NCBI RefSeq assembly: GCF_017810075.1
Contig: NZ_JADNYK010000009.1
Location: 1 to 64,000, forward strand
Length of the DNA stretch: 64,000 nt
Direction of reading: 5' to 3'
Source of the DNA: Pseudozobellia sp. WGM2
GTDB taxonomy: Bacteria; Bacteroidota; Bacteroidia; Flavobacteriales; Flavobacteriaceae
The notes beneath the pieces were generated by a model, which saw only the letters and a list, made by a program, of their open reading frames with translations, was not told the origin of the DNA and ran no database searches. The position numbers were made by a program, and so were the translations under genes. Position 1 is the first letter of the stretch. Each line of letters starts with the position of its first letter. This document shows, in pieces, positions 4,304 to 34,576 of this stretch.

Positions 4304-4317
4304 TGCCTTAATAATTA

Positions 4318-4399
4318 AGAGGAAGGATTTGACTGATTGCAACCTCTAGTGCTGTCAACATATAGGTGACATTAACACTAAAAAAATGCTAAAGCAGTT
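4318..4399 (+). ncRNA. SAM-II-like (SAM-II/SAM-V class) riboswitch upstream of metK
   Basis: P1 is AGAGG (4318-4322) with CCTCT (4343-4347). Its loop carries GATTTGACTGATTGCAA (4326-4342), almost identical to the SAM-II core remembered from the Sargasso Sea metX aptamer. The 3' strand AAATGCTAAAGC (4384-4395) matches the conserved GCUAAA strand. Pseudoknot pairing GACTG (4331-4335) with CAGTT (4395-4399) is available. Between P1 and the 3' strand an extra hairpin is inserted (AGTG/CACT plus TGTCA/TGACA, 4348-4379). Position in front of SAM synthetase fits feedback by SAM. Confidence 0.75.
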
Positions 4400-4422
4400 G
4401 ATGTTGGATTTCTTCCACGTTA

Positions 4423-5772: not shown

Positions 5773-5803
5773 TTTTTCCAAAAGTTCAAACACATATTGA
5801 ATT

Positions 5804-5923
5804 GTTATCAAGAAAGGTGGAGGGAATAGACCCTTTGAAGCCTTGGCAACCCTTTACCCGTTCCATTTTAGTAGGGTAGAGAAGGTGCTACGTTCTATCC
5901 CAATGATTATTGGGGCAGATAAC
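5804..5923 (+). ncRNA. SAM-I riboswitch (S box) upstream of metY
   Basis: P1 pairs GTTATC (5804-5809) with GATAAC (5918-5923). The S-box core is present in order: GGTGGAGGGA, GACCCTTTGAAGCC, GGCAACC, and then GGTGCTA with the P4 hairpin ATCCCAATGATTATTGGGG. No strong terminator was recognised between the aptamer and the metY ATG 124 bp further on, so the expression platform may act on translation. Confidence 0.92.
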
Positions 5924-6047
5924 GCAACAGATTACTTCCCGTAATTTTCGCTTTCTTATAACTTTTTGATAGAACCATACTGCTTAGTCGACAGTCTGGC
6001 GTTTGTATTTTTTAATGTATTTATAAACACTTAAAAAATCAGTTACC

Positions 6048-20078: not shown

Positions 20079-20162
20079 TACATTTTAAAAAAAGTCGGGG
20101 TTTGCTTGTTTTTGGCTAAGCCTTGACGTTACTTTGCAGCCGTTCATTTATACACTGAAATC

Positions 20163-20269
20163 GTTATCAAGAAAGGTGGAGGGACTAGACCCTTTGAAGC
20201 CTTGGCAACCCTTTTCTTATAAAGAAGGTGCTACATTCTATCCTTGTAAATAATGCATGGACAGATAAC
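20163..20269 (+). ncRNA. SAM-I riboswitch (S box) upstream of metH
   Basis: P1 is GTTATC (20163-20168) with GATAAC (20264-20269). The core GGTGGAGGGACTAGACCC, TTTGAAGCC, GGCAACC and GGTGCTA is in the standard order and closely resembles the copy at 5804-5923. A weak hairpin with TTTTTTT follows at about 20276-20307 and could be the terminator of the expression platform. A near-consensus -7 box (TTACTTTG) lies about 40 bp upstream. Confidence 0.92.
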
Positions 20270-20407
20270 AAAATGCGACAGCTCTTGTCCGTTGGTTTTT
20301 TTCTTGCTTGATATTGATTTAACTATGAATTCATCCGTTTGCAACAGTAGTTCTTATAGATGTAATTGAGGTAGTGTTTTTGAGTGAACCTGAGAATTTG
20401 AACATTG

Positions 20408-30199: not shown

Positions 30200-30343
30200 G
30201 ATATGCGTTTTTAAGTAGGATGAATAATCGGAATTCAAGCAAAAATGAGGGTTCTACCTGAAATCTCAATTCAAAAATAGCTAATATCTCCTGTAATTTT
30301 AGGCTGTATTGGCTTTCTAATTAAAAAAATAAGTTCTGACAAT

Positions 30344-30372
30344 TTGATTTTTAAATATAATTGTTACTTTAG
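30344..30372 (+). promoter_or_regulatory. Predicted promoter of the phe/tyr operon
   Basis: TTG (30344-30346), 18-bp spacer, TACTTTAG (30365-30372), one mismatch from TAnnTTTG. Transcription would begin near 30378, about a dozen bases before the leader-peptide ATG. Confidence 0.55.
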
Positions 30373-30390
30373 CCGAAGTTTAAGTGTACA

Positions 30391-30462
30391 ATGTCAAATC
30401 AATATTTCTTTAACGGTTTTTATTTCTACTTCTTTTTTAAAAGAGGTGTGGGACTGTTATAG
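30391..30462 (+). CDS. Phenylalanine/tyrosine-rich leader peptide
   Basis: This 23-codon frame starts with ATG at 30391 and stops with TAG at 30460-30462. Residues 5-16 read YFFNGFYFYFFF, so seven Phe and three Tyr lie within twelve codons. The tail is KRGVGLL. It precedes pheA-aminotransferase-tyrA and a terminator, exactly as the pheL peptide does in enterobacteria. The codons serve as sensors: ribosomes slow when charged Phe or Tyr tRNA is scarce. The sequence is not homologous to PheL beyond that bias. Confidence 0.85.
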   Translation: MSNQYFFNGFYFYFFFKRGVGLL

Positions 30463-30518
30463 AATATTGAAACCAAGATATTATGTAGAAGTCCCGTGAA
30501 AAACGGGACTTTTTTTAT
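30448..30518 (+). terminator. Attenuator: antiterminator and intrinsic terminator
   Basis: The terminator stem is AAGTCCCGT (30489-30497) with ACGGGACTT (30503-30511), nine base pairs, followed by a T-run to 30517. The alternative antiterminator pairs GTGGGACT (30448-30455), inside the last codons of the leader peptide, with AGTCCCGT (30490-30497). A ribosome that reaches the stop codon masks the first strand and lets the terminator form. A ribosome stalled on the Phe/Tyr codons leaves it free to antiterminate. Confidence 0.85.
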
Positions 30519-30547
30519 TTAAAACTAATTGATTTTTTAACCGACAG

Positions 30548-31375
30548 ATGAATTTAAAGATAGCCATACAGGGAATCAAAGGCTCTAACCACCATCAGGT
30601 AGCCAAAGAGTATTTTCATGATGATAGCCAATTGGTAGAATGTATGTCTTTTGATTTTTTGGTAGATAGACTATTGGATAAAACCGCTGATGTCGGAGTG
30701 ATGGCCATAGAGAATTCGATTGCGGGGTCAATCATTCCGAATTATGCTCTTGTATATCACCAAAACCTACACATTATCGGAGAACATTACCTGAATATCA
30801 ACCACAATTTGATGGTGCTGAAAGGGCAAGGTATCGACGATATTGAAGAGGTGCGATCACACCCGATGGCTTTGTTGCAGTGCAAAGAGTTTTTTAGAGA
30901 TTACCCTAAGGTCAAGTTGGTAGAAGATGTTGATACGGCAGAGACTGCCAGGTGTATTCAAGATGGAAAATTGAAGCATGTGGCGGCAATCGCCCCCCAA
31001 GTTGCGGCCGACCTATATGATTTGGACATCGTAGCGCCAGAGATACAAACCATCAAGAATAATGCAACTCGTTTTATTATTGTAAAGACAAAAAATAAGG
31101 AGTTACCAAAGGAGGAAATCAACAAGGCTTCGGTACGTTTCGTTACAGGGCATAAGCGCGGTAGTTTAGCGGCTGTGCTTAATGTTATGAGTGACTGTCG
31201 ATTGAGTTTGACCAAGATTCAGTCATTGCCCATAATCGAGACTCCTTGGAAGTATTCCTTTTTTGTTGATGTCACTTTTGAAGATTACGAATACTTTGAG
31301 AAATCGAAGTCGCTGTTGAACATCATGGCGGAAGACTTTAAAGTTTTAGGAGAATATAAAAATGCCAGAATATGA
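30548..31375 (+). CDS. pheA: Prephenate dehydratase
   Basis: Converts prephenate to phenylpyruvate in phenylalanine synthesis. The 275-residue protein has the periplasmic-binding-like catalytic domain with AIENSIAGSI near residue 57 and NATRFIIV near 177, whose Thr is catalytic. It is followed by an ACT regulatory domain (TGHKRGSLAAVLNVM near 199; LPIIETPWKYSFFVD). It has no chorismate mutase domain, which in this operon is fused to DAHP synthase. It is first behind the Phe/Tyr attenuator, and its TGA overlaps the next ATG. Confidence 0.94.
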   Translation: MNLKIAIQGIKGSNHHQVAKEYFHDDSQLVECMSFDFLVDRLLDKTADVGVMAIENSIAGSIIPNYALVYHQNLHIIGEHYLNINHNLMVLKGQGIDDIEEVRSHPMALLQCKEFFRDYPKVKLVEDVDTAETARCIQDGKLKHVAAIAPQVAADLYDLDIVAPEIQTIKNNATRFIIVKTKNKELPKEEINKASVRFVTGHKRGSLAAVLNVMSDCRLSLTKIQSLPIIETPWKYSFFVDVTFEDYEYFEKSKSLLNIMAEDFKVLGEYKNARI

Positions 31376-32520
31376 TACATACGGCAAATCGTTTACATAC
31401 AGTTGAAGAATATTACTTCTCTAAAAAATTGAGAGAAGTACGTGGCCTAATGGCCGAGGGTCGCCCGATTATCAATATGGGTATCGGTAGCCCTGATTTG
31501 GCACCCTCCAAAGAAATTATAGAAAGCATTCAGAATGCCGTGCTCGAAGGCGGGGCACATCAATATCAAAGCTATCAGGGTTTGCCCGAACTTCGTGAGG
31601 CCATCGCCAATTTTTACAATACTAAGTTTGAGGTAATCGCTGATCCGGCGACTGAGATATTGCCATTAATGGGATCAAAAGAGGGTATCATGCATATAAG
31701 TTTGGCTTTCTTGAACGAAGGCGATGCCGTGTTGATCCCTAATCCCGGTTATCCGACCTATACCTCTGTGGCAAAATTGGTGGGGGCAGAAGTAAAGTAT
31801 TATAACCTAACTGCCGAAGGGGGTTGGTTTCCTGATTTGGAGGCACTTAGCGAGCGTGACCTGTCAAACGTAAAAATCATGTGGGTAAGTTATCCACATA
31901 TGCCGACAGGGGCAACGGCAACGACGGCACAGTTCGAAGAATTGGTAGCTTTTGCCAAAGAGAAAGACATCCTTTTGGTAAACGATAACCCATACAGCTT
32001 CGTATTGAATGATTCTCCGGGCAGTATTTTATCGGTCGCTGGAGCGAAAGATGTGGCATTGGAACTTAATTCTCTGAGCAAAACCTTTAATATGGCCGGT
32101 TGGCGTGTGGGGATGGTCTTAGGTAGTGAAGACCACATCAACGCCGTACTCAAGGTGAAGAGTAATATGGATTCTGGTATGTTCTACGGAATTCAAAAAG
32201 GTGCAATTACCGCCTTAAAGAGCGACCAGAGTTGGTTCGATTCGTTAAAGGAGGTTTATAGTTCACGAAGAAATCTGGTTTTTGAGCTGGCCGATAAGTT
32301 GAACTGTTCTTATGAGTCGCAAGCAGTTGGAATGTTCGTTTGGGCTAAGCTGCCCGCAGGAAGCAAATCTGCAGAAGAATTTATCGATGAAGTGTTATAC
32401 GATAAGAACATTTTTATCACCCCTGGAACCATTTTCGGAAGCAATGGTGAAGGGTATATACGCTTCTCCCTATGCGTGACCGAAGATAAGATTAGAGAAG
32501 CGATAAGTCGATTTAATTAA
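31372..32520 (+). CDS. Aminotransferase, class I, aromatic-acid type
   Basis: This 382-residue fold-type I PLP aminotransferase contains MGIGSPDLAPS near residue 36, NPGYPTY near 124, the NDNPYSF motif near 204, and SLSKTFNMAGWRVG near 228, whose Lys binds PLP. Embedded between pheA and tyrA, it most likely transaminates phenylpyruvate and hydroxyphenylpyruvate to Phe and Tyr. Sequence alone would also allow LL-diaminopimelate or alanine aminotransferase relatives. Its ATG overlaps the pheA stop by four bases. Confidence 0.85.
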   Translation: MIHTANRLHTVEEYYFSKKLREVRGLMAEGRPIINMGIGSPDLAPSKEIIESIQNAVLEGGAHQYQSYQGLPELREAIANFYNTKFEVIADPATEILPLMGSKEGIMHISLAFLNEGDAVLIPNPGYPTYTSVAKLVGAEVKYYNLTAEGGWFPDLEALSERDLSNVKIMWVSYPHMPTGATATTAQFEELVAFAKEKDILLVNDNPYSFVLNDSPGSILSVAGAKDVALELNSLSKTFNMAGWRVGMVLGSEDHINAVLKVKSNMDSGMFYGIQKGAITALKSDQSWFDSLKEVYSSRRNLVFELADKLNCSYESQAVGMFVWAKLPAGSKSAEEFIDEVLYDKNIFITPGTIFGSNGEGYIRFSLCVTEDKIREAISRFN

Positions 32521-32538: not shown

Positions 32539-33399
32539 ATGAACGTTTTCATTATAGGTATCGGGTTGATAGGAGGTTCTTTTGCGAAAGATATTAAGCG
32601 TTTGCGCCCCGATACCAATATTTATGGTGTTGATACGAGCGAAAGCCATTTAGATGAGGCGCTGCAATTGGGCATTATCGATAAAAAGACTGAGTATTCA
32701 GAACTGGCCGTGGCCGATATGGTGATAGTTACCATTCCGGTCGATGTGATGGTCGATGAGCTTCCTAAAATTCTAGATGCCGTAAACGACGATTGTGTGG
32801 TTTTTGATGGAGGTTCAACGAAGAGTCTTATTTGTAGCGTAGTAGAGAACCATCCGAAGCGAAGAAACTTTTTGGCAGCTCACCCCATTGCGGGAACGGA
32901 GTTTTCAGGCCCATCTGCAGCTATAGAAAATTTGTATGCTGGCAAGACCAATATTATTTGTGAGGTAGAGAAGACCGCTTTTAAATTGCAAGAGCGTGCT
33001 TTAGAGCTTTTTCAAGAAATGGGAATGCGTATTCGGTATATGAATCCGCAGGCTCATGACAAGCACATTGCCTATGTGTCGCATTTGTCACACATCAGCT
33101 CGTTTATGTTGGGAAAGACGGTTATAGAGAAAGAGAAAAATGAACGTGATATTTTTGACATGGCGGGCAGTGGTTTTGAGAGTACGGTCAGGCTGGCCAA
33201 GAGTTCACCGGCCATGTGGACGCCTATTTTCAAGCATAATAAAGAGAATGTGGTGGAGACCTTGGAGGAATATATACAGAACCTTCAAGAATTTATGCAG
33301 CTGCTGAAAAGTGATGATTATGAGGGAATCTATAAGGAAATGAACGATACGAATAAAATAAAGGAAATTTTAAACGGAATACCATTAAACAATAAGTAA
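32539..33399 (+). CDS. tyrA: Prephenate dehydrogenase
   Basis: Oxidative decarboxylation of prephenate to hydroxyphenylpyruvate in tyrosine synthesis. The 286-residue protein opens with the NAD-binding IGIGLIGGSFAKDI and has the HPIAGTEFSGP motif near residue 115 and the helical domain motif YVSHLSHISSFM near 180. There is no ACT or chorismate mutase domain, so it is the short, stand-alone form. It is 18 bp after the aminotransferase gene. Confidence 0.93.
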   Translation: MNVFIIGIGLIGGSFAKDIKRLRPDTNIYGVDTSESHLDEALQLGIIDKKTEYSELAVADMVIVTIPVDVMVDELPKILDAVNDDCVVFDGGSTKSLICSVVENHPKRRNFLAAHPIAGTEFSGPSAAIENLYAGKTNIICEVEKTAFKLQERALELFQEMGMRIRYMNPQAHDKHIAYVSHLSHISSFMLGKTVIEKEKNERDIFDMAGSGFESTVRLAKSSPAMWTPIFKHNKENVVETLEEYIQNLQEFMQLLKSDDYEGIYKEMNDTNKIKEILNGIPLNNK

Positions 33400-33493: not shown

Positions 33494-34576
33494 ATGGAAA
33501 ACAAGAAAGAAATGAGAAAATGGTTGGATGATTTAGGCTTAGATCATCCACTGGTAATAGCTGGCCCTTGTAGTGCTGAGACCGAAGAACAAGTATTGGG
33601 TATTGCCCACTCTCTAAAAGATACCGATGTAAACTATTACCGTGCCGGTATTTGGAAACCCCGTACACGCCCAGGTAATTTTGAAGGTGTGGGGGCCCTT
33701 GGTCTTAAGTGGTTACAGCGAGTTAAAGAAGAAACCGGTATGAAAACAGCTACCGAGGTAGCGAACCGTGCCCATGTTGAGTTGGCTTTAGAGCATGATA
33801 TCGATTTATTGTGGATCGGTGCCCGTTCAACGGTTAGTCCGTTTATCGTTCAAGAAATTGCCGATGCCCTAGAAGGTACCGATAAAGTGGTTTTGATCAA
33901 AAACCCGGTAAACCCTGACCTTTCATTGTGGTTGGGTGCCGTTGAGCGTTTATATACTGCAGATATTAAGAATTTGGGTGTAATTCACAGAGGTTTCTCT
34001 ACCTATGCTAAAACGAAGTATCGTAATATACCTGAGTGGCAAGTAGCTATCGATTTGCAGACCAGATTTCCTGATTTGCCTATCATCAATGACCCATCGC
34101 ATATTACAGGTAAGCGAGATATGATTTTTGATGTTTCCCAAACGGCTCTAGATTTAAATTTTGATGGTTTAATGATAGAGACCCATCACGACCCTGATAA
34201 TGCATGGAGTGATGCTGCACAGCAGGTAACACCTGATAGTTTAGTTCAGATCATGACAGATTTGAGAATAAGAAAAGAAACCGACAGTGAAGCGGAGTAC
34301 AACTCTAAGCTTGATAATTTGCGTGCTCAAATCGATATTCTTGATGGTCAATTGATTGAGACCATGGGCAATCGAATGAAGATTTCAGACAGTATCGGTG
34401 AATTGAAAAAGCAAAAGAATGTTGCTGTACTTCAATCGAACCGTTGGAATCAAATTTTAGGAGCTATGATTCTAGAAGGAGAATCTCAAGGTTTGAGTGA
34501 AGAGTTTGTTTTGAAAATGTTCAAGGCCATTCACCAAGAATCTATAAATCACCAAGAAAAAATTATTAACGGATAA
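33494..34576 (+). CDS. DAHP synthase fused to chorismate mutase
   Basis: Bifunctional enzyme: residues 1-265 are a 3-deoxy-7-phosphoheptulonate synthase of the KDSA-related type (VIAGPCSAE near residue 21, RAGIWKPRTRPGNFEG, DPSHITGKRD). Residues 270-360 are an AroQ chorismate mutase (LRAQIDILDGQLIETMGNRM). It performs the entry step of the shikimate pathway and the branch step to prephenate, so feedback by prephenate or chorismate is plausible, as reported for this fusion in Bacillus. The fusion order here is synthase first. A strong terminator follows. Confidence 0.92.
   Translation: MENKKEMRKWLDDLGLDHPLVIAGPCSAETEEQVLGIAHSLKDTDVNYYRAGIWKPRTRPGNFEGVGALGLKWLQRVKEETGMKTATEVANRAHVELALEHDIDLLWIGARSTVSPFIVQEIADALEGTDKVVLIKNPVNPDLSLWLGAVERLYTADIKNLGVIHRGFSTYAKTKYRNIPEWQVAIDLQTRFPDLPIINDPSHITGKRDMIFDVSQTALDLNFDGLMIETHHDPDNAWSDAAQQVTPDSLVQIMTDLRIRKETDSEAEYNSKLDNLRAQIDILDGQLIETMGNRMKISDSIGELKKQKNVAVLQSNRWNQILGAMILEGESQGLSEEFVLKMFKAIHQESINHQEKIING

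Follow-up and report, generated by a model that had tools for sequence, protein, structure and literature searches.

A predicted leader-peptide attenuator with Phe and Tyr codons ahead of pheA in Pseudozobellia sp. WGM2 and related Flavobacteriaceae

Transcription of a row of aromatic amino acid genes in Pseudozobellia sp. WGM2 is very probably controlled by a ribosome-mediated attenuator of the pheL/trpL type, as judged from comparative analysis and RNA folding. The genes lie within a 64,000-nucleotide stretch of contig NZ_JADNYK010000009.1 (hereafter the window), all on the plus strand, and were assigned by Pfam: pheA, encoding prephenate dehydratase (30548–31375; PF00800), a class I/II aminotransferase gene (31372–32520; PF00155), tyrA, encoding prephenate dehydrogenase (32539–33399; PF02153, PF20463), and a gene for DAHP synthase fused to chorismate mutase (33494–34576; PF00793, PF01817). 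We infer that the four genes share one transcript, and likewise infer where it starts, that the leader is translated, that polymerase and ribosome are coupled and that amino acids elicit a response; amino-acid supply is proposed as the signal because of the codon content of the leader and the functions of the genes. Among named relatives, the closest PheA was that of Pseudozobellia thermophila (Flavobacteriaceae; 93% identical), in a scan that may omit the WGM2 genome itself.

Results

Ahead of pheA, a 23-codon reading frame on the plus strand, MSNQYFFNGFYFYFFFKRGVGLL, runs from an ATG at 30391 to a TAG at 30460–30462. Seven Phe and three Tyr codons fall within codons 5–16, exactly as the preliminary description of this DNA had it, and we annotate the frame (30391–30462) as a putative leader peptide gene on the basis of its reading frame, conservation and codon-level variation. 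It is followed by a predicted intrinsic terminator (30488–30518, plus strand), found by terminator scan, folding and pair counts, with arms at 30488–30497 and 30503–30512 and a T-rich tail to 30518; the ATG of pheA at 30548 lies 29 nt further on. Both scan and sequence agree here with the earlier placement of a T-run terminator at 30489–30518, some 30 bp before pheA. The scan gave 11 pairs at this site against a shuffle mean of 0.2, and the leader RNA (30376–30520) folded at −40.9 kcal/mol (z −5.2), a value that none of 200 shuffles equalled. The upstream neighbour, an ABC ATPase gene, is on the opposite strand and directed away from pheA, and the terminator is thus most likely part of the pheA transcript.

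Upstream of the reading frame is a promoter-like TTTG-N18-TACTTTAG (30343–30372, plus strand), matched with a relaxed pattern, which resembles the Bacteroidota −33/−7 promoter type. The relaxed pattern, TTT?[GT]-N17-22-TAnnTT[AT]G, was loosened post hoc and occurs in 110 of 134 leaders (called by the strict rule given below) versus 54 of 2680 shuffles; a stricter one, tried earlier, matched 16 of the 134 versus 67 of 2680.

A PheA was identified in 178 of the 199 Flavobacteriaceae genomes searched, each from a different genus, and the DNA upstream of pheA was compared for 150 genera among the matches listed (sets of 30 and 120 stretches, the WGM2 genome included). Our strict rule demanded a reading frame of 10–45 codons, of which 6 or more, making up no less than 25%, encode Phe, Tyr or Trp, with its stop 5–50 nt before a terminator-like stem. 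This arrangement was present in 134 of the 150 regions, in none of 450 dinucleotide shuffles and in 2 of the 150 reverse strands, and the distance from stop to stem was confined to 21–26 nt in 101 of the 134. Among the 16 misses, 13 show a leader and terminator by eye (in an unblinded inspection), one of which, L104, has its start beyond the contig end. Leader and terminator were not seen in three genera (L121, L153, L174) within the upstream stretches examined; in the genome of L121, an RNA model match of 43.9 bits lies about 0.5 kb upstream of pheA, outside that stretch. In the first set of loci, the aromatic reading frame was present at 31 of 31, in L008 only at −457.

The count in shuffles bears on one alternative, namely that T-rich intergenic DNA yields Phe codons by chance and that the terminator is left over from the upstream gene. 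The region is indeed AT-rich. However, none of the 450 shuffles reproduced the arrangement, the upstream gene points away on the other strand, so that no known upstream transcript would end here, and the covariation of the stems and the joint change of terminator core and leader described below would be left unexplained. We consider the probability of a chance origin negligible.

A second collection of 80 named loci, 79 of them with upstream DNA, overlaps the per-genus set (L244 and L003, for example, are one genome) and is not independent of it. Many of its loci are from Flavobacterium species, with peptides like MSNNRFYFSNSFYFFFSRSEDCAMVI. The aromatic reading-frame rule was passed by 78 of the 79, including L289, where the frame counted is a short chance one; in L286, which fails, the true leader is visible by eye. 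A terminator was also present in 49 of the 79 by the same scan and in 79 of 79 by a relaxed search.

An RNA model of the element, R1, which was built from 30 of the 199 family genomes searched, matched 143 of them, many weakly near E 1e-4 and some away from pheA. Weak second matches off pheA (G025:C2:2861463, G057:C1:261844, G109:C1:534109 and G153:C6:64877) may reflect chance or further leaders rich in aromatic codons. Across the phylum, R1 matched 29 of 296 genomes, and pheA was present at 18 of the 30 loci fetched. Outside the family, all eight R1 loci with pheA, which lie in families f3, f4 and f8 and were chosen through the model match itself, have an aromatic leader and a terminator. At 54 further non-family pheA loci, the rule was passed with a terminator at 11 (f3, f4, f5, f16 and f19) and without one at a single locus (f9), an aromatic frame of chance-like appearance and without terminator was found at four, and no leader was found at the remaining 38.

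Variation among the leaders has the pattern of a coding sequence. In an alignment of 30 leaders, from which the evidence on translation was drawn, departures from the consensus over codons 5–16 numbered 17, 33 and 65 at codon positions 1, 2 and 3, and single-base codon changes were synonymous in 36 cases versus 17 non-synonymous. The changes at second positions were mostly swaps among Phe, Tyr and Trp; codon 7, for instance, is aromatic in all 30 leaders (Trp in 19, Phe in 6 and Tyr in 5). Because of this codon-level patterning we regard the short frame, rich in codons for the amino acids made by the genes that follow, as probably translated.

Every one of the 134 leaders called by the strict rule has both Phe and Tyr codons, and a single switch fed by both amino acids, as the preliminary description suggested, therefore fits the codon content. 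A Trp codon is present in 82 of the 134, the leader of the WGM2 window itself having none. One attenuator responding to Phe, Tyr and Trp alike would suit the gene row, because the row also encodes DAHP synthase; we hold this extension to Trp as a possibility a little short of an even chance. If the Trp codon counts, one leader would read three branch products at the shared entry of the pathway.

The leader RNA can be divided into four regions that form alternative stems. Region 1 (30408–30421, plus strand; from RNAalifold, pair counts and masked folding) is the predicted partner of 30450–30462 on a leader free of ribosomes. Region 2 (30450–30468), located by comparison and folding like region 3, would be the 5′ arm of the antiterminator; it has the core GGGACU at 30450–30455 and overlaps the last codons and the stop of the frame. 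Region 3 (30477–30496) would form the 3′ arm, and its end, AGUCCCG, doubles as the 5′ arm of the terminator, which pairs with region 4. An antiterminator strand within the last codons, at 30448–30455, had been proposed earlier, and GTGGGACT is found there. The protector stem 1:2 was absent from that description.

RNAalifold on the aligned leaders returned stems 1:2 and 3:4. In the 30 leaders, 93.9% of the cells of stem 1:2 and 99.6% of those of stem 3:4 were paired, each with a covariation score above that of all 500 shuffles, while the number of doubly changed pairs in stem 1:2 was matched by 77 of 500 shuffles. For stem 2:3, 94.8% of cells were paired versus 6–58% when the strands were slid against each other, and no covariation beyond that of shuffles was detected in the 30-leader alignment (131 of 500 reached its score; one double change), since this clade hardly varies there. 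When regions 2 and 3 were folded in isolation, the closing pairs of the antiterminator formed in 30 of 30 leaders (mean z −3.3 against mononucleotide shuffles). In 117 of the 134 leaders, 8–12 nt separate the end of the last aromatic codon from region 2. The leader of L030 has an earlier in-frame stop inside its GGGUAGGGACU region-2 sequence; the leader ends 12 nt further upstream and region 2 is retained.

Coupling between region 2 and the terminator became visible across clades. The terminator core falls into classes, and region 2, despite being coding, follows it, giving the pairs GGGAC/GUCCC, GAGAC/GUCUC and AGGAU/AUCCU. A locus's own region-3 core was exactly complemented in region 2 at 80 of 132 loci versus 24 of 528 tests with the cores of other classes; the exact 5-base complement was absent from the other 52. 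For the named loci, the corresponding figures were 66 of 79 versus 15 of 395. By class, loci with GUCCC had GGGAC in 31 of 37 cases and GAGAC in none of the 37, those with GUCUC had GAGAC in 41 of 72 and GGGAC in 3 of 72, those with GUCCU had AGGAC in 6 of 16, and Flavobacterium-type AUCCU loci had AGGAU in 28 of 29. Only one of four GUUCC loci matched its own core; three of the four have GGGAC, which pairs through one G-U. A 6-base test that tolerates G-U discriminated poorly (own core at 59 of 133, other classes at 32%). In a structure-blind alignment of the 134 leaders, 60.9% of 2:3 cells were paired, rising to 71.5% when slid by one column, which we read as a register difference between clades.

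These counts overstate the number of independent switches, as loci of one class are related and the core changes are not independent events: 29 of the 79 named loci make up the single AUCCU class and are mostly Flavobacterium. L024 and L272 (one genome), with GUCUC and GAGAC inside the first clade, look like a switch of their own from their sequence. Taken with the aromatic codons and the narrow stop-to-stem distance, these mutually exclusive stems that change together support the pheL/trpL-type logic advanced in the preliminary description; of the conservation in relatives that it had proposed as a check, these three features were recovered and covariation of 2:3 within the 30-leader alignment was not.

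A mechanism can be proposed from these features. RNA polymerase would transcribe the leader with a ribosome trailing behind. A shortage of charged tRNA-Phe or tRNA-Tyr would stall the ribosome on codons 5–16, where it would block the pairing of region 1 and leave region 2 (from 30450) free, so that 2:3 could form before region 4 is made and transcription would continue into pheA. When both charged tRNAs are plentiful, the ribosome would reach the stop at 30460–30462 and cover region 2; region 3 would then pair with region 4, and transcription would end at about 30512–30518. With no ribosome on the leader, 1:2 would form, and the terminator with it.

Masked folding of the window leader, which assumed a ribosome edge 11 nt past the A-site codon, behaved in this manner. 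With a stall at codon 16, the antiterminator formed at 30450–30495 (−16.6 kcal/mol), and stalling at codon 5, 7, 10 or 13 preserved it; once the ribosome occupied the stop, the terminator alone was left (−16.5 kcal/mol). Folded without a ribosome, the leader formed 1:2 and the terminator together. Folding and comparison thus predict an intrinsic terminator between leader and pheA, an antiterminator exclusive with it, whose 5′ arm would be covered at the stop and free during a stall at the control codons, and a 1:2 protector stem.

A stalled ribosome could also arise in another way: the nascent FYFYFFF chain might be a conserved arrest peptide that stalls the ribosome on a free aromatic amino acid, as TnaC does, rather than on uncharged tRNA. 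The peptide sequence, roughly FWNGFYFYFFFKRGTGLF across the first clade, is indeed conserved to a degree uncommon among leaders. However, part of this conservation is due to RNA pairing, codons 6–10 pairing with the end of the frame and its stop; codon 7 swaps among Trp, Phe and Tyr, and the last residues shift with the terminator (KRGTGLF to KRNETLYV). Such changes would not be expected of an arrest peptide dependent on fixed residues. We thus regard stalling by the peptide itself as very unlikely, and favour attenuation through stalling at aromatic codons.

Discussion

The element resembles the Phe_leader family (RF01859; enterobacterial pheL/pheA) in having a Phe-rich leader, an antiterminator and a terminator before the gene for prephenate dehydratase. 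Of 17 matches, that of RF01859 to the window scored highest, spanning the full model with 33.4 bits, and the gathering score of 55 was not reached; on 20 other loci it gave three matches at E up to 1, the best at 36.1 bits. The pheA site is hence not a member of Phe_leader by gathering score, although it looks built to work alike. The leader of E. coli pheL is Phe-only. Here, unlike in pheL, the Phe codons are interspersed with Tyr codons and frequently with Trp codons as well, and the products of the gene row extend to Tyr and the shared precursor.

Bacteroid-trp (RF01692; gathering score 49 bits) shares the phylum and the type of leader, and differs in having Trp codons, another operon and another RNA family; at the pheA site (30300–30600) it gave no match up to E 10. 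Of 100 family genomes, 63 gave a score above its cut-off, among them that of Pseudozobellia sp. WGM2, where the one match (C2:74235–74350; L328, C2:73200–75200) lies before the gene for anthranilate synthase component I and contains a terminator-like hairpin as well as a reading frame in which three Trp codons stand in tandem (MYNNSINTWWWNNSRQTS). By these features this element is a trp leader, a putative sister attenuator of the one before pheA. If the pheA leader does read all three amino acids, one multivalent leader and the trp leader would together set much of the aromatic supply in such bacteria.

Attenuators in Bacteroidetes/Chlorobi were reportedly mentioned by Vitreschak et al. in 2004. 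In a 2010 report, the authors stated that they knew of no leader-peptide system outside Proteobacteria and Actinobacteria, to which they themselves added Firmicutes (PMC2965389). Bacteroid-trp is listed among the cis-regulatory motifs of Bacteroidetes (PMC2864571), and short reading frames reminiscent of attenuation leaders have been described in Bacteroides thetaiotaomicron (PMC7366714). For Flavobacterium psychrophilum, a 2021 study reported that a structured 5′ element precedes pheA, occurs in further genera of the Flavobacteriaceae and matches nothing in Rfam; it also described strong indications of attenuation by leader peptides ahead of operons for amino-acid biosynthesis (PMC9723704). 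That pheA element is very probably the one analysed here; the passages of the study compared here give neither its anatomy nor its codon content and do not name pheA among the leader-peptide cases. The cautious suggestion that the attenuator may be new for the phylum hence does not stand as worded, Bacteroid-trp being catalogued and present in the same genome and a pheA 5′ element being named in the text of PMC9723704.

In the literature searched, largely open-access main text, no Phe/Tyr(/Trp) leader was found described for Bacteroidota. What we add is the anatomy of the leader, its multi-amino-acid codon content and its distribution. The principle is a textbook one; here it appears common to most of the bacterial family examined, and pheA leaders, at a site where no Rfam family exceeds its threshold, are given a defined four-region anatomy. 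Attenuation coupled to translation thereby becomes testable in Bacteroidota at one well-conserved site.

The usual position of a structured 5′ element ahead of an amino-acid operon would suit a ligand-binding riboswitch or a T-box-like tRNA sensor, the reading frame being incidental. No such family, however, matched the site at its gathering score, nor did any match 30300–30600 up to E 10; the frame varies like coding sequence, and the stems found are those of an attenuator. The T-box model in particular had no match in the window at gathering score, where only SAM and SAM-II models did, or at the site up to E 10. We judge a direct sensor of this kind extremely unlikely, and attenuation by a translating ribosome remains our preferred reading.

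The SAM matches, at 4313–4402, 5802–5925 and 20161–20271 (plus strand), are one SAM-II and two SAM-I riboswitches. The SAM-II riboswitch stands before a gene for S-adenosylmethionine synthetase, while one SAM-I riboswitch precedes a gene for a PLP enzyme of Cys/Met metabolism and the other a homocysteine methyltransferase/B12 methionine synthase run. Two classes of SAM-sensing RNA thus occur inside the window, over a span of 16 kb.
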